Positions 3,193 to 27,820 of a DNA stretch of 33,728 nucleotides are shown here, in pieces. Origin of the DNA: a virus; IMG/VR virus record IMGVR_UViG_3300027847_001511, positions 1-33,728 of that record. The stretch is one strand, 5' to 3'. Position 1 is the stretch's first letter. Each line of letters begins with the position of its first letter. A model generated the notes under the pieces. That model ran no database searches and was not told the origin of the DNA. It saw only the letters and a list, made by a program, of their open reading frames with translations. Both the position numbers and the translations under genes were made by a program.

Positions 3193-4931
3193 CAGACCGT
3201 CATCCAGTCAATCACTTCGAATGGGAACCTAACCCCACGTTTCATGGTAGCCGGCCAATGTCTTTCGTCACGGGCACCCCTGAAATGGGAGATTCGATAT
3301 ACATATTCTCCCACATTTGTCGGATCGGGTGTCAAAGCGATGCCAAACTCGGGCCACCGGGACCACACAGCAGAACCGAATGGTCGCAGGTCACGACTCG
3401 CTCCGGTGCCCAACGGGGCGTGATGTTCTAGCCACAGGGCCACCCCGTAGATCGCACGGAGGGTGTCTAGGTATTTGGCGATTTCTGTGGCGATGGCTTC
3501 GCTTGTTCGACCTCCCGGATCGACGAACGACTTGTACAGGGGGCCGAGTAGTAACAGGTCGGGTTCGACCTCTTCAATCTTGCTCTCCAGAAGCAACCGG
3601 TCGGGCATCTTCATCAAATCGAAGCCATCGGGCTTCATGTACAGGTGGGCGTCCAGATTCGGCTCGAATCCCATCGACTTTGCCGCACCGATGATGCTTC
3701 GTGATGTACGACGGATAATCCGCTCCGGATTCTCGAGATCAACGCTGAGAGTGCGTATGGGTGGCATCGGTTGAAAGGAGAACGGCTGAACGCCCATCGC
3801 CGGAAGAATCGCAGCCTGCCGGAGAAGCATCGTCTTGCCGACACCTTCAGCCGCAACCACGATGACTCGCTCACGTCGTTCCAACAGCCCCGGAATCAAC
3901 CAGTCATAAGAATCATCGTCGTCCTCAGCAACGAAGTCACCCCACATGACAAGCCGACCTTGGTTCGCAGTGGGAGTGACCTCTGCGCTCCCCAACAACA
4001 ACATCGCCTTGTGCATGATGCTGGCAGGTGATCGCGTGGTGTCATCCAGCAGCCCCCTCAGTTGAGAGAGCGTCTCGTCCACGGGTGAGAGTGGCGCCTC
4101 CTCAACCTCGACAACTTCGGGCAGAGGCTGATCTCCGTAGTCATCCAACTTGTATTCAACGAGTTGTTCGGTGGTCCCACCCGCTGCGATGTGATCGGTG
4201 ATGTCCTTCTCTTCGGGACAGATCCATACGGCTACGTCACAGCCAGCCTCTCGAAGTTTGATCTCGACATCTGCTGCGTGCCGTCTCCCTGGGTCGTCAT
4301 TGTCAACAATGATGTCGACTGTCGCCCCAGCAAGTGCACGGGTGTGTAGGTCCAGCCACTTGCCGGCACCACCGGGCATGGTTGTCGCACAGGCACCCAG
4401 CCGGTTCAGGGTGTCGCAGTCCTTCTCGCCTTCCACCACCCAGATCGGCAGTCCCTCTTTCTTCTGCCTGAGCACATCGGGCAAGTTGTAAAGCACTTTG
4501 GGTATGTCGCCGAGTTTGTAATCCCAGCCACCTTTCCCGTCGGGCTTCCTCTGCCGAAAGGTTTTCTTCCCGTCGGGTTCCGCGAAACGGACTTTTTGGA
4601 ACAGCAGAGCACCGTCGGCATCTTCGTAGTCGTAGGCGGCGACGTACTTGAGTTTCTTCTGCTCGATCTTCGGGTACTCGCGGCCCGCTGTCTTCTGCGG
4701 ATCCTTATGGAAGAGATCCGTGATCCCGAGACTGACAGAGTCAAGAATGTCAGCGGTACTGCAGCCTCCGTTGCGATGGCAATGCAGGAGCACTTGTCCG
4801 TCGTCGTTCTCGTGAACGGATAGCGACGGGTTCCTGTCGTCTTGCCGGCATGGGCAACGTGCTTCCCAACCGTTTGCTGAACTGACCACACCCTCTAAGC
4901 GGGCGAGAAGATCATCCGTGTGCTTGAACAT
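3192..4931 (-). CDS. Primase-helicase: zinc finger, TOPRIM and RepA-like ATPase
   Basis: A 579-aa multidomain replication protein. A CHC2-like zinc finger spans residues 26-57 (C26, C28, C51, C57, with PSLS between the pairs). A TOPRIM domain follows, with V-V-E167-G-E-K-D and D210-N-D212-D-P-G-R, the acidic metal-binding residues of DnaG-type primases. The C-terminal half is a RecA/RepA-like ATPase with Walker A A-A-E-G-V-G-K366-T and Walker B P-D458-L-L-L-L-G-P, then an L-E-H-H-A sensor-like motif. The protein should make primers and probably unwind DNA at the phage fork. It overlaps WhiB by 20 bp and the TerS-like gene by an ATGA. Confidence 0.9.
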   Translation of the reverse strand: MFKHTDDLLARLEGVVSSANGWEARCPCRQDDRNPSLSVHENDDGQVLLHCHRNGGCSTADILDSVSLGITDLFHKDPQKTAGREYPKIEQKKLKYVAAYDYEDADGALLFQKVRFAEPDGKKTFRQRKPDGKGGWDYKLGDIPKVLYNLPDVLRQKKEGLPIWVVEGEKDCDTLNRLGACATTMPGGAGKWLDLHTRALAGATVDIIVDNDDPGRRHAADVEIKLREAGCDVAVWICPEEKDITDHIAAGGTTEQLVEYKLDDYGDQPLPEVVEVEEAPLSPVDETLSQLRGLLDDTTRSPASIMHKAMLLLGSAEVTPTANQGRLVMWGDFVAEDDDDSYDWLIPGLLERRERVIVVAAEGVGKTMLLRQAAILPAMGVQPFSFQPMPPIRTLSVDLENPERIIRRTSRSIIGAAKSMGFEPNLDAHLYMKPDGFDLMKMPDRLLLESKIEEVEPDLLLLGPLYKSFVDPGGRTSEAIATEIAKYLDTLRAIYGVALWLEHHAPLGTGASRDLRPFGSAVWSRWPEFGIALTPDPTNVGEYVYRISHFRGARDERHWPATMKRGVRFPFEVIDWMTV

Positions 4932-5274
4932 GCGGCATTCGTTTAGACCTTGTAGAGCGTAAGCCCAGTTGGTTGCGAGACGATTTGATTCCTCCGTGAA
5001 TGCGGAGGAGCCTTCGCTCCTGTTCGTTCAGTCCACCCCAAATGCCGAATGGTTCATGCTTCAAAGAGTATGCAAGGCACTCTTCCGAAACTACACAACC
5101 GGAACAAACGCTCACTGCGCGGGCTGTATCTATCATCAGATCGATGTCGATGGAAAAACGCGATCGCTTAGGTCGGGGTTCCGGAAACCACCACTCGGTC
5201 GGCTTGCCATTACAGGCACCGTCCACGGGTGGAAGAGCGCCATCTTCGTTGAAGAAACGAGGCAGATCAGACAC
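4912..5274 (-). CDS. whiB: WhiB-family iron-sulfur transcription regulator
   Basis: A 120-aa protein with the four WhiB cysteines C21, C57, C60 and C66, and the family turn G-I-W-G-G at 77-81, followed by a basic tail that would contact DNA. WhiB proteins hold a 4Fe-4S cluster, bind the primary sigma factor and are restricted to actinobacteria and their phages, so this gene is strong host evidence. In phages such proteins can redirect host transcription. GTG 5274 overlaps the upstream stop by 8 bp; its own end overlaps the primase start by 20 bp. It may act on the many sigma70-like promoters here, which is speculation. Confidence 0.93.
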   Translation of the reverse strand: MSDLPRFFNEDGALPPVDGACNGKPTEWWFPEPRPKRSRFSIDIDLMIDTARAVSVCSGCVVSEECLAYSLKHEPFGIWGGLNEQERRLLRIHGGIKSSRNQLGLRSTRSKRMPHVQAHG

Positions 5275-9478: not shown

Positions 9479-9625
9479 TCAAAACTTCATGGTCGGATAG
9501 GAGGTCCGACCAGTCGGCGTCGCTTCTTTCTTGACTTTCTTCATCGCTCGCCGGTTCCTCTTCTTCTGGTACTCTGCTCGCTTCTGAGCCTGAGCCGTCT
9601 TGCGCTGTTCCTTGTGCTTCTTCAT
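9479..9625 (-). CDS. Small highly basic protein
   Basis: A 48-aa protein that is nearly half Lys/Arg/Gln in its first 35 residues (MKKHKEQRKTAQ...), likely a nucleic-acid-binding or ribosome-associated peptide. ATGA overlap with the HIT gene stop. No known family. Confidence 0.65.
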   Translation of the reverse strand: MKKHKEQRKTAQAQKRAEYQKKRNRRAMKKVKKEATPTGRTSYPTMKF

Positions 9626-10056
9626 GCCGGCAGGTCAGACATCGACGAGTAGCGAGCCTTCTCCGGGATCACCCATCGAACACCCCCACGGGGATCCCTC
9701 ACATCTCCCTCTCGTCGCGGAATGACGTGAACATGTGCGTGCTCGATGGTTTGCCCGGCGGAAGCCCCGACATTCGTACCAATGTTCATGCTGGTAACTC
9801 CAGTAACACGAAGGTTGTCTGCGATCAGGTTGACCAACGACCACAGATCGGCCCGCTCGTCCTCGTCCAGTTGAAACACATTCATGACGTGCCTGCGTGG
9901 GACAACCAGCATGTGACCTTCCGTGACTGGGTAGTTGTCGGGAAAAGCGGCTGACGATCGACCCATCGTGGTGCCGGCTGCGTGCCGTGTCCACCCGCTA
10001 TCCAGTCCCGCAATGTCGCAGAACGGACATTGATCTATACGAACTCCGGATTCCAC
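9622..10056 (-). CDS. HIT-family nucleotide hydrolase or transferase
   Basis: A 144-aa protein with the histidine triad H106-A-H108-V-H110-V, the catalytic signature of HIT enzymes that cleave dinucleoside polyphosphates or nucleotide-phosphoramidate bonds. N-terminal C10-P-F-C13 is the usual zinc pair, and N-Y-P-V-T-E-G-H-M-L-V-V-P is the conserved substrate-pocket strand. GTG 10056 was chosen because it is the only in-frame start close before the CPFC motif; it overlaps the endolysin stop. Its role in infection is unknown; alarmone or signal-nucleotide removal is a possibility. Confidence 0.9.
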   Translation of the reverse strand: MESGVRIDQCPFCDIAGLDSGWTRHAAGTTMGRSSAAFPDNYPVTEGHMLVVPRRHVMNVFQLDEDERADLWSLVNLIADNLRVTGVTSMNIGTNVGASAGQTIEHAHVHVIPRREGDVRDPRGGVRWVIPEKARYSSMSDLPA

Positions 10057-10766
10057 AGACGCTCCCACGTTTGAGGACCAACACACCCATCCTTGGTCAG
10101 TCCTTCCATCCTTTGGAACTTCTTGACGGCCCAATGGGTACGCCACCCGTACACGCCGGTGTTCTTCATTGTTCCGAAGAAGCCGAGCATGATGATGCGC
10201 TCTTGCAGAGTGCCGACGATGGGGCCACGCGAGTTCCGCCTTTTCGACAACGGTGTGGCTGCCACCTGATCTGCGCAAGCAGCGATGTAGGCCAGGATGG
10301 CAAGAAAGTCAACTTTTACTTCAACCTTCTCTTCTTTTGATTCTTTGACTGCTGGGGCATCGAACCATCCGTTGGCATCTCGGGGTTGATGATGCCACCA
10401 CTCGCGGGCTTTGATGGTGGGGACGACGCCGTAGCGTTCAGCGATGTTGTTGACTTCCCACTTGGCGATCTTGTTACTGACCATGTGCAAATCGACCGCA
10501 TAGCAGAATCCATCGTCCTGCGTCATGTGCCAACTTCCTCTCCACCAGCCGCCGGCCCCGAAGCGGCGGTCTGGGTTGGCGGCGAGATTGCCAGTTCCTG
10601 CCTTGTATTTCTTGTAAAAGTACGCCTGCTTTGCGTAGGTGCGGCATGCGCTACTGACCTTCACCCGACCAACGATCTGAGGATCTTGGAAGAAAGCCTC
10701 TAGTCGTTTGACGAAGCGCGGGTGGAGAAGAGAGAGGTCAACGTTCTTGCCTGTGACTGGAATCAT
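10035..10766 (-). CDS. Endolysin: M15/VanY-like peptidase with peptidoglycan-binding domain
   Basis: A 243-aa protein. The catalytic part (1-130) has S-A-C-R-T near 39, G-S-W-H80 followed by A-V-D92-L-H, and E122-W-W-H125, the zinc ligands and catalytic Glu of LAS/M15 peptidases; spacing H80 to D92 is longer than in classic VanY. Residues about 195-240 are a PG_binding_1-type domain (G-W-R-T-H-W-A-V-K-K-F-Q then G-x-V-G-P-Q-T-W). It should cut the peptide part of host peptidoglycan at lysis. There is no signal peptide, so a holin is expected elsewhere. TATTGT lies 6 bp before the ATG, but no -35 is evident. Confidence 0.9.
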   Translation of the reverse strand: MIPVTGKNVDLSLLHPRFVKRLEAFFQDPQIVGRVKVSSACRTYAKQAYFYKKYKAGTGNLAANPDRRFGAGGWWRGSWHMTQDDGFCYAVDLHMVSNKIAKWEVNNIAERYGVVPTIKAREWWHHQPRDANGWFDAPAVKESKEEKVEVKVDFLAILAYIAACADQVAATPLSKRRNSRGPIVGTLQERIIMLGFFGTMKNTGVYGWRTHWAVKKFQRMEGLTKDGCVGPQTWERLWNPEFV

Positions 10767-11402: not shown

Positions 11403-11542
11403 GTGCGGCTATGCTGGGTTCGGGAGGCCAAAGGTATGGTGTCCCCGGGTAATGTAAATGCACAGCGTGGCGTATTGCAGCGTGAAACTGTGTAGCCCGG
11501 GTATCGCAGGGTTCAACTCCCTGTCCGCTCACTGCTGACTGG

Positions 11543-11615
11543 CTCGGCGGGGAGGGATCGAACCTCCAACCTCCGGGTCCAAAACCCGGCGTTCTGCCAG
11601 TTGAACTACCGCCGA
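11543..11615 (-). tRNA. tRNA-Gln (anticodon TTG)
   Basis: Acceptor TCGGCGG pairs with CCGCCGA, the anticodon loop is TTTTGGA, and the T-arm is GGAGG-TTCGATC-CCTCC. Discriminator G, followed by an encoded CCA (11540-11542). Confidence 0.93.
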
Positions 11616-11619
11616 CTGG

Positions 11620-11691
11620 TACCCCCAACGGGGATCGAACCCGTGTTACCAGCGTGAAAGGCTGGCGTCCTAACCACTAGACGATGGGGGC
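11620..11691 (-). tRNA. tRNA-Glu (anticodon TTC)
   Basis: Acceptor GCCCCCA pairs with TGGGGGT (first pair G-T wobble), the anticodon loop is CTTTCAC, and the T-arm is ACGGG-TTCGATC-CCCGT. Discriminator A, followed by an encoded CCA (11617-11619). Confidence 0.93.
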
Positions 11692-11695
11692 TTGG

Positions 11696-11768
11696 TGGGA
11701 GCGGAGGGACTCGAACCCTCAACCGTCGGATTAAAAGTCCGCTACTCTGCCAGTTGAGTTACGCTCCC
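11696..11768 (-). tRNA. tRNA-Lys (anticodon TTT)
   Basis: Acceptor GGGAGCG pairs with CGCTCCC, the anticodon loop is CTTTTAA, and the T-arm is GAGGG-TTCGAGT-CCCTC. Discriminator A, followed by an encoded CCA (11693-11695). First of the three in transcription order. Confidence 0.93.
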
Positions 11769-12215: not shown

Positions 12216-14132
12216 TCAGGAACCGAAGGCGAGATTCATCACCAAATCGCTCGTCGAGGCGGCAGCCCCGTCGGTGACACCCTCAGTTGCTTGGTTGACA
12301 ACGCTTCTTTTGGCATTGATCAAGTCGTAGATCTGCTGATCGATGGTGTCGACGGTCAGCATGTACGTCGCTGTGACCGAACCCTCCTGTCCGATGCGGT
12401 GCAATCTCGCAACCGTTTGGTCAACGTCGGCTGGAGTCCATGGCTGCTCAACGAACAAGATGTCTTGGGCTGCAGTGAGCGTGTGGCCAGTCTTGCCGGC
12501 CTGAATACTGAGAACCATGACGAGGTCGCCCGGTTCGTCTTGGAACAAGGCCTTCGCTTCCTCCACCTCGTGAACGCTCATGCCTCCCTGGATCTTTAGT
12601 CCTCCGTGTTCTCGGGCGAGTTCGTCCACAATGTCTCGATGGTGTGCCGCGACAACGACTTTGCGTCCTTCCTCCATGTGGGCTGCGACCCATTCATGGG
12701 CTGCCGCCATCTTCGCCTTGGCTGCAATACGCCGAAGTACTGAAATCTTGACTAAATGCTCGGAAGCCTCGGCCCGGAACCTCGCACGGACAGCAGCCGA
12801 CTGATGGTTCAATCCCATCTCTTTGGCGATGGCACGAGCGCGATCAACGAGATACTGAACGATGTCCTTCTCTGCCTTGGCGTACTCCTTCATCACGGAG
12901 GGTGTGCCGGCAACGAGCACGGGTGAGTGGACGATGGGTGGCAACTCCTTCATTACCTCTGGCTTGGTACGCCGGATGTAGCAGGTTGAGCGTAAGCGTT
13001 CGTTGAGTTCTTCAAGATTCGAGTGCCCCTCCAGATGCCACTGCCCCCACTTGTCTTTGAACGCATCGCAGTACCTTCGGTAGAACCCCCACGTCCCACC
13101 GAACTTGTCGATCTGTCCGATGATGTCCAGTTGGGCTGCGTACTCGGCTGGCCTGTTGGTGACTGGCGTTCCGGTAAGCAGCATTATCGGGGCTTCCACG
13201 CCGGCGGAGCGCGCAAGCCGTTTCGCAGCCTTTGTTCGCTGGGCGGTCGGTGTCTTACAGTAGTGAGATTCATCGAATATGTACGACTTGTGACTTGACA
13301 ACTGTCGTACCCAAGTGGTAATATTGGAATACCCAATCACGACGATGTCGTAGTCAGTCGGAAAGTCTTTCCGGTTTGTGACTATCTGGACATTCCGATT
13401 CGGAAAGAACTTCCACCACTCCGCTTGCCAGTTCAGCACCAAGTTCGGTGGGCATATGACAGCCCCGGGGAACACGTCTTCCCCCCGTGAGGCCAACAGT
13501 TCGATTGTGGCTGCTGCCTGCACTGACTTGCCTAACCCCATTTCGTCTGCGATGAAACAGCGTCGGCTGGCTAGGGCATAGGCGACTCCGGCGCGCTGGT
13601 ACGGGAGCAGTTCGCCCGACATCCCAGGGACATGGATGGCTGCGTCCGTGGCACGGCTGGCTGCCATTGTCGTGTCGAGTTGGCTTCTGACCGTGCTGGC
13701 TTCCTGTCGTACCGCCGCCTCTACGGGTACATCGAATGTCTCGCTCCATCTCACCACTTCATCAACGCTCGTAATCGGGGCTTTCCACGCGTGTGTCGCC
13801 TTGTCCCATGTGATGCCGGGGATCTGCTTCGCGGAGGTGACTGCAACCCGGTCGTAGGCGAATGCGAGATGAATGAATCCATCTGGATGCATGTAGATGC
13901 GTCGGCTGGCGTGGCGAAGCGTGGGGAGGGTGAGAAGTAGAACTTCTGGGTCGATGCTGAACTCGTGGGTGGCTGCGAAAAGCCGAACTTGATCGAGACT
14001 GGATACGGGTGCACGCCACACCCGACTAACTTTGTCCCACTTCGCACCTTTGAGTAGGCGCACTTCGGCAACCTGAGCGGAGTCGTAGGGGAAGTCCAGA
14101 ATGAGGTGGTCGTCGGCTAGGGACAGTCGCAT
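12216..14132 (-). CDS. SNF2-family helicase with two N-terminal HARP-like repeats
   Basis: A 638-aa protein. Two HARP-like repeats, each with W-D-K-x6-W-x-A-P and a closing helix, lie at about 30-50 and 108-130. The ATPase has Q-R at 179-180 (Q-motif region), Walker A D196-E-M-G-L-G-K202-S, and motif II D287-E-S-H. The C-terminal lobe ends with motif VI, R-L-H-R-I-G-Q at 576-582. The order matches SMARCAL1/HARP annealing helicases, which remodel forks; in the phage it likely aids replication or recombination. ATG 14132 was chosen over 14279 because the extra 49 residues would read through the terminator hairpin. TACGAT sits 6 bp upstream, so it may be leaderless. Confidence 0.9.
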   Translation of the reverse strand: MRLSLADDHLILDFPYDSAQVAEVRLLKGAKWDKVSRVWRAPVSSLDQVRLFAATHEFSIDPEVLLLTLPTLRHASRRIYMHPDGFIHLAFAYDRVAVTSAKQIPGITWDKATHAWKAPITSVDEVVRWSETFDVPVEAAVRQEASTVRSQLDTTMAASRATDAAIHVPGMSGELLPYQRAGVAYALASRRCFIADEMGLGKSVQAAATIELLASRGEDVFPGAVICPPNLVLNWQAEWWKFFPNRNVQIVTNRKDFPTDYDIVVIGYSNITTWVRQLSSHKSYIFDESHYCKTPTAQRTKAAKRLARSAGVEAPIMLLTGTPVTNRPAEYAAQLDIIGQIDKFGGTWGFYRRYCDAFKDKWGQWHLEGHSNLEELNERLRSTCYIRRTKPEVMKELPPIVHSPVLVAGTPSVMKEYAKAEKDIVQYLVDRARAIAKEMGLNHQSAAVRARFRAEASEHLVKISVLRRIAAKAKMAAAHEWVAAHMEEGRKVVVAAHHRDIVDELAREHGGLKIQGGMSVHEVEEAKALFQDEPGDLVMVLSIQAGKTGHTLTAAQDILFVEQPWTPADVDQTVARLHRIGQEGSVTATYMLTVDTIDQQIYDLINAKRSVVNQATEGVTDGAAASTSDLVMNLAFGS

Positions 14133-14279: not shown

Positions 14280-14489
14280 CTAGTTCGTTGGGATCACGTT
14301 CATCGGGATCAGTGGGCGATCCATGTCCTCCACCATTCTAACTGAGTGGTTGTGATCGGAGATCCTGACGATCAAGTCTTGCGTCGCCTCGAACGTCGCC
14401 GACACGATGTCGGCAATGAGGAAGTGGCGAAGGGCCGATTCTGCCAGTTCGCTTTCGTTATGTGTCATCTTGACTGTGTATGTGTCCAT
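14280..14489 (-). CDS. Small hypothetical protein, leaderless
   Basis: A 69-aa protein, alpha/beta in outline (T-Y-T-V-K-M at the start, a central helix, D-L-I-V-R-I-S-D). Function unknown. A promoter with the exact 6-bp gap fixes ATG 14489, and there is a terminator downstream, so it is a one-gene transcript. The SOS boxes at 14627-14697 are about 140 bp upstream. Confidence 0.75.
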   Translation of the reverse strand: MDTYTVKMTHNESELAESALRHFLIADIVSATFEATQDLIVRISDHNHSVRMVEDMDRPLIPMNVIPTN

Positions 14490-14495
14490 GTCTCT

Positions 14496-14524
14496 ATCTT
14501 ACTCGACGCAACCCCGCCCGTCAA
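14496..14524 (-). promoter_or_regulatory. Promoter for a leaderless gene
   Basis: Minus strand: TTGACG, 17 bp, TAAGAT, 6 bp, ATG 14489. Confidence 0.88.
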
Positions 14525-14546: not shown

Positions 14547-14575
14547 TTGACTTGTGCGAACTCGCCCTGTAGGGT
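14547..14575 (+). promoter_or_regulatory. Plus-strand promoter of the SOS-box region
   Basis: TTGACT (14547-14552), 17 bp, TAGGGT (14570-14575). The start of transcription would be about 14582, so both SOS boxes lie inside the leader. Confidence 0.7.
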
Positions 14576-14626
14576 GAAGAGCCCCGCCCAGTCCATTAGC
14601 GCTGCCCAACACACACCCGACGGGCA

Positions 14627-14642
14627 TCGAACATTTGTTCGA
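14627..14642. promoter_or_regulatory. LexA (SOS) box 1
   Basis: A perfect 16-bp palindrome, TCGAACA-TT-TGTTCGA. It fits the Gram-positive/mycobacterial LexA site CGAACrnryGTTCG. Confidence 0.8.
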
Positions 14643-14681
14643 TTTGCCAAAGATCACACGAAACCCAGCCGCCGGACGCAA

Positions 14682-14697
14682 TCGAACAGGTGTTCGA
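14682..14697. promoter_or_regulatory. LexA (SOS) box 2
   Basis: A perfect palindrome, TCGAACA-GG-TGTTCGA, 55 bp from box 1 and ending one base before ATG 14699. The AGGTG inside it could serve as the ribosome site. Confidence 0.8.
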
Positions 14698-14698
14698 C

Positions 14699-14857
14699 AT
14701 GAGGGAAAACCCAGAGGAAATACTCGGTTCAAACTCAAAAAAGTCAGAAAACGAGCCATCCGCGCATCGTTCACCAGAATCGCAACGCTCTTTTTTACTT
14801 CCATCATTTATTACGGTGGAGGAAAGGACTGTCCTCATGGGTTTATCACCCTCGTAG
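14699..14857 (+). CDS. Small ORF directly behind SOS box 2
   Basis: A 52-aa ORF starting MRENPEEILG, Ser/Glu-rich, ending F-I-T-V-E-E-R-T-V-L-M-G-L-S-P-S. The TVEERTVL part is encoded by one copy of the dispersed GGTGGaGGAAAGGACTG element, so its coding value is uncertain. It would be controlled by LexA if expressed. The alternative is that 14580-14880 is an untranslated leader. Confidence 0.35.
   Translation: MRENPEEILGSNSKKSENEPSAHRSPESQRSFLLPSFITVEERTVLMGLSPS
14813..14831 (+). repeat. Dispersed element copy
   Basis: ACGGTGGAGGAAAGGACTG. See finding. Confidence 0.7.
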
Positions 14858-14890
14858 TGCGGGGCTTTCGTAGCGCTCTTGCATCAGAGA

Positions 14891-14915
14891 CAAAAAAAGG
14901 CCCCCCGAAGGGGGC
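14891..14915 (-). terminator. Rho-independent terminator
   Basis: Minus strand: GCCCCC-TTC-GGGGGGCC followed by TTTTTTTG, downstream of the 14938-15105 gene. Confidence 0.88.
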
Positions 14916-14937: not shown

Positions 14938-15105
14938 TTAGAAGCAGGTATCGCAAGTGCAATGATTGCGTCCACCGCTCTGGCAACTTGAACTGGCGGA
15001 GTGGTTAGGGAAGATTGCTTTCCCTGCCCTCTCAGCGTCCGTGGCGCGATCGCAGTAAGCGCATCCGCCTCCGAGTGACATAACTGCTATGTGGTTTGTT
15101 TCCAT
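14938..15105 (-). CDS. Small cysteine-rich zinc protein, leaderless
   Basis: A 55-aa protein (METNHIAVMS...) with C-A-Y-C-D-R near residue 15, similar to the bacterial zinc pattern G-G-G-C-x-Y-C, and C-T-C-D-T-C-F at the end. Zinc binding is near certain, role unknown. ATG 15105 is fixed by the promoter, which is divergent from the plus promoter at 15167. Confidence 0.75.
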   Translation of the reverse strand: METNHIAVMSLGGGCAYCDRATDAERAGKAIFPNHSASSSCQSGGRNHCTCDTCF

Positions 15106-16744: not shown

Positions 16745-16908
16745 TAGAAGTCCCCGTCGTCTTCGTGTAGTTCCTCAATGTCGTACTCAATGTCGGTGTA
16801 GAGGTGGGCCATCTCGTTGGCCTCTAGGAGCGCATCGGCCCTGTTCGGGCAGTCAAGCACCTTCTCGAACTCGCCGTAGATGTTGGCGTTGATCAGATAC
16901 TTAGGCAT
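16744..16908 (-). CDS. Small acidic protein
   Basis: A 54-aa protein, MPKYLINANI... with a very acidic C-terminus (D-I-E-E-L-H-E-D-D-G-D-F). The V-L-D-C-P-N-R-A-D-A-L-L-E-A-N-E pattern suggests a beta-alpha ferredoxin-like half, as in DpnD/PcfM-type small proteins. Overlaps the previous gene by 8 bp. Confidence 0.65.
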   Translation of the reverse strand: MPKYLINANIYGEFEKVLDCPNRADALLEANEMAHLYTDIEYDIEELHEDDGDF

Positions 16909-17596: not shown

Positions 17597-17615
17597 TCGG
17601 TGGCGGAAAGGACCG
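17597..17615 (+). repeat. Dispersed element copy (GGTGGCGGAAAGGAC)
   Basis: TCGGTGGCGGAAAGGACCG, with GTTACGCAACACTCAC before it. See the finding on the six copies. Confidence 0.7.
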
Positions 17616-18723: not shown

Positions 18724-18871
18724 GTGATTCTTTCCGAATGTTTCAAATCACACATTCAGAACGAAGGCCAGCCGGCGGACGGACTACGGGTATCGCCTCC
18801 CATATGGCCGGCCAGCCCCGATGATGAGACAACCTCGCGCTACATCAACACGGTGGAGGAAAGGACTGCCC
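18724..18871. other. Spacer with dispersed element copy
   Basis: Holds the inverted repeat GAATGT-10 nt-ACATTC, a GGGTATCGC word (about 18788) and the dispersed element ACGGTGGAGGAAAGGACTG at 18850-18868, preceded by GCGCTACATCAAC. No gene seen. Confidence 0.6.
18850..18868 (+). repeat. Dispersed element copy
   Basis: ACGGTGGAGGAAAGGACTG, identical to the 14813 copy, and preceded by GCGCTACATCAAC. Confidence 0.75.
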
Positions 18872-19270
18872 TCAGGCGAAGTCGACCCACTCGTTGACGT
18901 TACGAATGATGATGGGCGTGTTCTCTCCAACCCACGCACCAGCGATGTTGAAGGAGTAGTGCTCCCACGCTTCCTCGAAGGGCAGACCCTCTACCTCAGT
19001 CAGATGCTCAATGATGTCGTCCTCGTTGTAGACGACCACCGTGTTCTTCGAGTACTGGCAGCCCCATCCAACGATTGCGGAATCCAGTCCGTCCATGAAC
19101 AGGGCCTCAGGGTTCAGTTCTTCTAGGGCTGATTCCGTGATCTTGCGAGCGCGAGTGCCTTTGAGTTGGCGTTCGTTGGCTTCTGGCTCACTCTCCATGA
19201 TGGCAGCGTTGGCCTCTAGTTGGGCGAGTGCTGTGGGATCCCCATCTTCGGGGTCGTGGTAAGCGGGCAT
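18872..19270 (-). CDS. Conserved phage hypothetical (DGLDxAIxGxG / NxxGAWxGExTP type)
   Basis: A 132-aa protein. The C-terminal 80 residues have F-M-D-G-L-D-S-A-I-V-G-W-G, then V-V-V-Y-N-E-D, E-E-A-W-E-H-Y, and F-N-I-A-G-A-W-V-G-E-N-T-P. I recognise this as a very widespread uncharacterised protein of tailed phages. The N-terminal 50 residues are an acidic helical extension. Leaderless start. Confidence 0.85.
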   Translation of the reverse strand: MPAYHDPEDGDPTALAQLEANAAIMESEPEANERQLKGTRARKITESALEELNPEALFMDGLDSAIVGWGCQYSKNTVVVYNEDDIIEHLTEVEGLPFEEAWEHYSFNIAGAWVGENTPIIIRNVNEWVDFA

Positions 19271-21429: not shown

Positions 21430-21540
21430 GGAAACAGCCCCCTCCCGGCGTTTCCGGCTTGGGTATCGCGTCGCCCGTGGCCAGGAGAGGACCGGGGCTT
21501 TCGCTCTCATGCTACGACCACACGGTGGCGGAAAGGACTG
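21430..21540. other. Spacer with dispersed element copy
   Basis: GGGTATCGC at 21461, CGGGGCTTTCGC near 21493, and ACGGTGGCGGAAAGGACTG at 21522-21540, preceded by ATGCTACGACCAC. It abuts the stop of the 21541 gene. No gene seen. Confidence 0.6.
21522..21540 (+). repeat. Dispersed element copy
   Basis: ACGGTGGCGGAAAGGACTG, ending at the stop codon of the minus-strand gene 21541. Confidence 0.75.
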
Positions 21541-23506: not shown

Positions 23507-23749
23507 GCGATTTCTTAGATTGTTTGTCAAGATAACGTCCCGTCTGCAAGACCCGTCGGTCAGGGCCAAAAAGCCAACTTCTTGCCAAAACCCCACAGAC
23601 GTTCAAGGTCAAAACCGTCAAAGAAATCCTAAGAAATCTTGCGCTACCTCAACACGGTGGCGGAAAGGAACTGAGAGGGGAGGCGACCAAGGGTGAAAGG
23701 ACTAAACCCCCCCGCGCCTTGCGGCCACAGGAACCTCCCCACTCAGAGA
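23507..23749. other. Spacer with dispersed element copy
   Basis: Holds GCGCTACCTCAACACGGTGG-type sequence ending in CGGAAAGGAACTG (23641-23673) and a C/G-rich stretch before 23750 that may act as a weak minus-strand terminator. No gene seen. Confidence 0.5.
23654..23673 (+). repeat. Dispersed element copy
   Basis: ACGGTGGCGGAAAGGAACTG, preceded by GCGCTACCTCAAC. Confidence 0.7.
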
Positions 23750-27175: not shown

Positions 27176-27820
27176 ATGAACAAGAAACAAGAAGCAGCAG
27201 CAGCCCATCGTGAACTCAAGGATGCCATTCTCTATGCACAAGCACTAGAGGACGGCTACGAGTTCCCCGATGAGATCGTCCTGCCTGCCGGCACGCTCGT
27301 ATCCGGTCGGCTGTTCCAACTCTCTAAGCCAGACGTTGACGGTAACCACATTCGAGAGTTGGGCTGGTACCGCTTTGATGGCGCCGTCAAGCAGCCTCCG
27401 TCAAGAATCGGCATGGGGTTCGGCTACTGGGGCACCATCGGCACTTGGACCATCCTCGCCCATGGCCCCTACAACAAGAACGGATCTCCGAAGGGGCATT
27501 GTCGCCAGATCGACCTGTGTGTCGGCGAGGGTGCTTCGGGTCGTGTTGAGACTCGCATCTGGAAGATCGCTAAGGGTCGTGAGACTGCCAACTCTAGGGG
27601 CGTCAAGTTCGTCAAGGTTGCGGAGAACGGTCGTGCCGAACAGTACGCCGACTTCGAGGAATGGTCGGGCGACCATGAGGGGGAGCAGTTCTCAACCCAG
27701 GAGTTGGTCGAAAAGTCTGGTTTTTCATCACAGACCGTATTGAAGTATCTCAAGACCTCGGCCCACTTCACTAAGATCAAGTCGGGCTTGTATGAGTGCG
27801 GAAAGAATCAGACCGCCTAA
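27176..27820 (+). CDS. Hypothetical protein with possible C-terminal HTH
   Basis: A 214-aa protein. An N-terminal helix (K-K-Q-E-A-A-A-A-H-R-E-L) precedes a beta-rich region with G-M-G-F-G-Y-W-G-T-I-G-T-W-T. The C-terminal 40 residues, F-S-T-Q-E-L-V-E-K-S-G-F-S-S-Q-T-V-L-K-Y-L, read as a winged HTH. It may regulate the AAA/VWA genes that follow, or be co-regulated with them. No family recognised. Confidence 0.75.
   Translation: MNKKQEAAAAHRELKDAILYAQALEDGYEFPDEIVLPAGTLVSGRLFQLSKPDVDGNHIRELGWYRFDGAVKQPPSRIGMGFGYWGTIGTWTILAHGPYNKNGSPKGHCRQIDLCVGEGASGRVETRIWKIAKGRETANSRGVKFVKVAENGRAEQYADFEEWSGDHEGEQFSTQELVEKSGFSSQTVLKYLKTSAHFTKIKSGLYECGKNQTA

Follow-up and report, generated by a model that had tools for sequence, protein, structure and literature searches.

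A conserved LexA-box module downstream of a candidate untranslated-RNA promoter in a putative, probably virulent actinophage lineage

The window, that is, the whole stretch of DNA analysed here, is a linear virus record of 33,728 bases. It carries two LexA (SOS) boxes that are conserved in related phages and lie at fixed distances downstream of a conserved promoter sequence, and no conserved ORF follows them. On balance, the comparison of these phages argues that host LexA would act as a brake: a dedicated phage promoter would stay repressed, and its untranslated RNA unmade, until the SOS response or a high copy number relieved the block. That LexA binds the boxes, represses the promoter and releases it upon SOS induction, and that the RNA has a function, is what we infer from this comparison. 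LexA-controlled phage promoters as such are already known; to our knowledge, the phages concerned are temperate, and the control serves induction there. New here is the setting: an actinophage lineage that looks virulent conserves LexA operators downstream of a putative untranslated-RNA promoter, and close relatives differ in box number, from one to five. If the proposal is true, a lytic phage senses the SOS status of its host during infection. The coordinates of the features are collected in Table 1.

Table 1. Features of the window, with positions counted from its first base
Feature	Position	Strand	Remark
HIT-domain protein	9622-10131	-	
tRNA cluster, three genes: Gln(TTG), Glu(TTC), Lys(TTT)	11540-11768	-	
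Flanking ORF, 69 aa	14280-14489	-	no Pfam/PHROG match
Sigma-70-like promoter TTGACG-N17-TAAGAT of the flanking minus ORF	14496-14524	-	promoter scan
Sigma-70-like promoter TTGACT-N17-TAGGGT, towards the boxes	14547-14575	+	predicted start ~14582
Conserved AGCCCCGCC near the predicted transcript start	14580-14588	+	alignment
LexA (SOS) box 1, TCGAACATTTGTTCGA	14627-14642		centre +52.5 from predicted start
LexA (SOS) box 2, TCGAACAGGTGTTCGA	14682-14697		centre +107.5 from predicted start
Conserved non-coding stretch, candidate untranslated RNA body	14698-14867	+	
Dispersed 20-bp motif copy, TTACGGTGGAGGAAAGGACT	14811-14830	+	
Strong intrinsic terminator closing gene 14938-15105	14900-14915	-	terminator scan
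Convergent ORF, 55 aa	14938-15105	-	no Pfam/PHROG match

The two boxes and the probable host

Boxes 1 and 2 are both exact copies of TCGAACA-NN-TGTTCGA, 16-bp palindromes that are perfect except for the central bases; their start-to-start distance is 55 bp. The sequence-only reading had described a pair 55 bp apart and unique in the window, and a mismatch search confirmed its coordinates as well as its uniqueness: at fewer than three mismatches, the two boxes are the sole matches of TCGAACANNTGTTCGA in the window. With up to three mismatches allowed, the window contains seven matches of the box motif where 1.86 would be expected, and all 100 shuffles stayed below seven. Without mismatch, CGAAC-N4-GTTCG occurs only at boxes 1 and 2 in the whole record. 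So close a pair of boxes within 33.7 kb is no chance event.

Both boxes match the actinobacterial LexA half-site TCGAACA exactly (PMC2248561), agree in full with the TCGAAC-N4-GTTCGA palindrome of actinobacterial LexA boxes, and fit the LexA consensus of S. venezuelae, tCGAAC-N4-GNNCGa (PMC9380542). The LexA boxes of Firmicutes have A...T flanks, TACGAACATATGTTCGTA (PMC2248561), whereas the boxes of the window have T...A flanks and are of the actinobacterial type.

The window encodes one WhiB-family regulator (4912-5274, minus strand, E 1e-14). In comparison with isolate phages, its helicase and primase reach ~32-36% identity to the relatives with the best coverage, which are mostly from Arthrobacter phages, and the wider helicase and primase matches include many Gordonia phages. 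Judged by the WhiB gene and these relatives, the host is most likely actinobacterial. No DNA similar to the window was found among isolate phages. Assigning the host through GTDB contigs was uninformative, as the closest contigs came from MAGs of other phyla (Oxalobacteraceae, Gemmatimonadetes).

A search of 15 clade records, some of which exceed 75 kb, gave no tyrosine or serine recombinase domain (PF00589 and PF00239), the window itself being a fragment; the window and its box-bearing relatives likewise gave no integrase domain. The absence of recombinase domains suggests that the lineage is probably virulent, a call that is weakened by the incompleteness of the records.

Boxes in related phages

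Relatives were gathered with the adjoining helicase gene (12216-14132), which yielded 49 related loci. At the homologous intergenic spot, the closest relatives fall into six genotypes with one to five boxes each: two boxes in the genotype of the window (L013/L014, one phage), five in L015, three in L016/L017, one in L018, two in L019 and four in L069, the record of which also includes the helicase start. Outside this spot, CGAAC-N4-GTTCG is absent from the box-bearing closest relatives. The core bases CGAAC and GTTCG are unchanged in all 17 boxes of the six genotypes, and only positions 1, 8, 9, 10 and 16 vary.

An invariant core with variable flanks is the behaviour of a LexA site, unlike that of an RNA hairpin with compensatory stem changes. 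The palindromes could also work as hairpins in the transcript instead of as protein sites: every box can form a hairpin, and the fold of 14560-14885 has a z-score of -4.4 versus shuffles. However, the five core pairs show zero compensatory changes in the 17 boxes, and substitutions at positions 10 and 16 leave the LexA core intact but destroy the palindrome. Three boxes of L069 even lie upstream of the promoter, and the covariation term is unfavourable (+3.68, with support for one of 51 pairs, from five sequences only). We consider the hairpin explanation extremely improbable.

Several other sites were set apart from these boxes. The box arrays of L004, L005, L007, L009 and L012 were discarded: judged from L004, they seem to be 21-bp heptad repeats within coding sequence and not relatives of the boxes. 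The sites of G020 at 16860, 16971 and 67292 are located within long ORFs and were left out of the counts. Box triplets are also present in L010 and L011, which are unrelated AT-rich phages.

Geometry of the promoter and the boxes

A plus promoter upstream of the boxes had been proposed from the sequence of the window. The element is there and is conserved in the relatives; however, it scores 8/12 in the window, which is under the threshold of the scanner, so that it was not listed, and its -10 element TAGGGT is weak. Six of six genotypes have TTGAC[T/A]-N17-TANNNT with AGCCCCG after it, L015 in two copies, and it is this conservation across genotypes, not the consensus score, on which we base the promoter call.

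Except in L018, the centre of the first downstream box falls between +52.5 and +55.5 relative to the predicted start (+53.5 in L069). In the window, L015, L016/L017 and L019, a second box is centred between +106.5 and +110.5. L018 has lost the upstream box; its single remaining box is centred at +74.5. In L015, the promoter, the leader and two boxes were duplicated as one unit with the distances unchanged, and L069 has three more boxes ahead of the promoter, at -46.5 and further upstream. Owing to the fixed promoter-box distances and the joint duplication in L015, the boxes read as operators of the plus promoter. Together with the syntenic conservation and the invariant core, the fixed spacing from a conserved promoter also lends support to the original identification of the palindromes as LexA boxes. 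At ~+53 and ~+108, their downstream placement is unusual: at classical SOS promoters the LexA boxes lie over the -35 and -10 elements, whereas those of the window begin ~45 bp inside the predicted transcript.

The same data bear on a decoy function, which the sequence-only reading had offered as an alternative (titration of LexA) and in which the amplified phage boxes sequester host LexA, the SOS regulon is turned on and the transcript is incidental. The boxes are near-consensus, their number ranges from one to five between relatives, and they are confined to a single locus, all of which would suit a decoy. However, a decoy needs neither a fixed distance to a conserved promoter nor the co-duplication of promoter and boxes; one box, as in L018, makes a poor sponge, and the sequence downstream of the boxes is conserved too. 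A decoy function is thus unlikely.

The minus promoter (14524-14496) is directed away from the boxes, with ~100 bp to the nearest one. The ORF it serves, 14280-14489, has homologous sequence in L015 and L019; L016 and L017 have a different one, and it is absent from L018. On the plus strand, the terminator scan found no terminator in the window. A repeated promoter cassette, CTTACTCG...CTGTCAAG (minus-strand TTGACA-N17-TAAGGT-like), is located before many small genes at seven sites between 14480 and 25472 of the window.

The stretch downstream of the boxes

The sequence-only reading had tied the boxes to a single transcript with a 52-codon ORF as the target. The link to a plus-strand transcript is borne out by the comparative evidence; the ORF is not. 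The ATG ORF 14699-14857 is present as an open frame in the window, but none of the distinct relatives examined has it intact: L016/L017 have a stop after two codons, L018/L019 have no ATG, and L015 is frameshifted. The stretch 14698-14867 is 65-84% identical to the relatives. Its substitutions past the last box look non-coding, being even over the codon phases (8/10/8, 19/19/17, 17/15/20 and 11/16/16), and most indels there are not multiples of three; in a comparable comparison versus L015, the helicase gene has the expected third-position excess (53/31/175). The even codon phases and the indels indicate that the stretch is conserved yet non-coding. A longer plus-frame ORF from TTG 14635 was rejected as well, its frame being broken in L016 and its amino-acid identity (~34-51%) being about the non-coding expectation; several relatives have stop-to-stop frames of like length.

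The most economical and more likely reading is that the putative box-controlled transcript is an untranslated RNA. AGCCCCGCC (14580-14588) is complementary to GCGGGGCTT (14859-14867), and the pairs are almost invariant. Against shuffled sequence the fold of 14560-14885 is the more stable one (z -4.4), yet covariation supports just one of 51 pairs, which leaves the RNA structure putative. A search of Rfam 15 gave no match at the gathering score in the box transcript; the only matches in the window are the three tRNAs.

Proposed mechanism and candidate ligand

We propose that the palindromes are operators for host LexA. LexA dimers bound ~53 and ~108 bp downstream of promoter 14547-14575 would block or road-block transcription, and the blocked product would be a short untranslated phage RNA that extends from ~14582 to ~14880. 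RecA filaments on damaged or replicating DNA would lead to cleavage of LexA, upon which the block would be lifted and the RNA made. Alternatively, the RNA would be made once the phage copies outnumber LexA. Several findings speak against this mechanism: the boxes begin inside the predicted transcript, the -10 element is weak, no plus-strand terminator was found in the window, the RNA fold has no covariation support, and L018 retains a single box at +74.5.

In 22 records, either related or box-bearing, no peptidase of the S24/LexA type turned up, nor did a LexA-type repressor in the window or the tested box-bearing relatives, nor a LexA-domain-only protein in the tested box-bearing records, which are up to 80 kb in size. 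Four long relatives, G024-G027 (L091-L094), do encode proteins with the LexA DNA-binding domain only (PF01726, E 3e-9 to 4e-15); their open frames are 86-154 aa in length and have no S24 domain. The 387 kb of these four relatives contain zero CGAAC-N4-GTTCG sites. As no LexA-fold protein was found in the tested box-bearing records and G024-G027 have no boxes, host LexA is favoured, and it is likely the ligand of the boxes.

The record is a fragment, so a phage repressor encoded beyond its ends could be the ligand instead. The boxes would then be operators for a phage LexA-like DNA-binding protein outside the sequenced fragment, in the manner of gp6, the truncated LexA homologue of phage GIL01. 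The domain-only proteins of G024-G027 are of this type and lend the idea some weight. However, no box was found in those very phages, no such protein in box-bearing records up to 80 kb, and gp6 itself recognises another site (PMC6182141); we regard a phage-encoded ligand as quite unlikely. The sister phages have LexA-domain proteins but no boxes, an apparent trade-off that lends itself to a comparative test. In L091-L093, the LexA-domain gene adjoins the gene for a conserved ~165-aa protein (AFTEGHSYNK...).

Comparison with known systems

A precedent is the P3 promoter of GIL01, which host LexA represses through tandem boxes that follow the -35 element (PMC6182141). Like the proposed unit of the window, P1 and P3 of GIL01 (host LexA with gp7; gp6) combine a phage promoter, host LexA and more than one box (PMC6182141, PMC4551915). 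GIL01 differs in being a temperate phage of Bacillus thuringiensis, the boxes of which control protein-coding operons, whereas the unit of the window looks non-coding and no protein-coding phage operon was found under its boxes. GIL01 also has the LexA cofactor gp7; for the phage of the window, no such cofactor is known and no integrase was found. GIL01 itself does not integrate (PMC9700832), which, like the fragmentary state of the window, weakens the call of a virulent life style from missing recombinases. The domain-only proteins of the gp6 type are encoded by the sister phages G024-G027 and absent from the box-bearing records found. With the LexA regulon of S. venezuelae, in which prophage genes are LexA-controlled, the window shares the 16-bp consensus (PMC9380542); different from the boxes there, those of the window are in an apparently virulent phage, inside the predicted transcribed region and at a fixed distance.

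Box groups of the wider clade

G036, G037 and G038 also have box groups, each at one intergenic locus. G038 (L095) has boxes at 51866 and 51898, with four abutting LexA-like boxes, two of them degenerate; 14 DnaA-box-like sites (51566-51841) directly adjoin the LexA-like boxes. The pair of G037 (34763 and 34835) has three DnaA boxes around it, and G036 has one box at 27207 plus a degenerate copy. Past the boxes, the three share AATTTTG and then TTAGATTTATC. G020 and G018 have one common box, at another locus. The cluster of DnaA and LexA boxes in G038 is possibly an origin or a DnaA/LexA sponge, and an origin-like role is conceivable for part of the clade.

Extended to the window, a replication origin or copy-control element would have LexA sites that gate initiation and a promoter that gives activating or priming transcription. 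Besides the sites in G038 and G037, the only two records with DnaA boxes or DnaA-box-like sites beside the LexA boxes, an A-rich stretch adjoining box 2 of the window is consistent with this. However, the window has no DnaA boxes, none are near the boxes in G036 and G020, and the cumulative GC skew of the tested records has no extreme at the boxes, which makes an origin very unlikely.

A dispersed 20-bp motif and other repeats

Copies of the motif ACGGTGGNGGAAAG with its flanks are located on the plus strand of the window at 14811-14830, 18848-18867, 21520-21539 and 23652-23671, and weaker copies near 17597, 32248 and 33143. In parts of the clade genomes the motif recurs every 1-3 kb; more than 100 copies were found in 19 records; within a record they share one strand, save for one exception, and the reversed control gave zero. 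A stop codon of an antisense gene lies within 60 nt of 42 of the 98 sampled copies, versus 11% of random positions. The motif as such was not found in isolate phages. Candidate roles are a 3'-UTR element, a signal for a phage polymerase or a DNA-level site.

Bases 14813-14837 and 18850-18874 are identical at 24 of 25 positions, and the latter overlap the stop codon of gene 18872-19270 (minus strand); given this match, the box transcript could pair with the mRNA end of that gene. One may go further and suppose that a virulent phage times a regulatory RNA by the host SOS repressor, used as a sensor of damage or copy number, and that the 20-nt sense motif of this RNA pairs with complements at the 3' ends of several phage operons for their joint regulation, though we hold this extension to be quite doubtful. 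Elsewhere in the window, the intergenic region 1757-1925 contains three tandem 52-bp repeats ending in TTTTTTAGTGGACAC, which are iteron-like or terminator-like.
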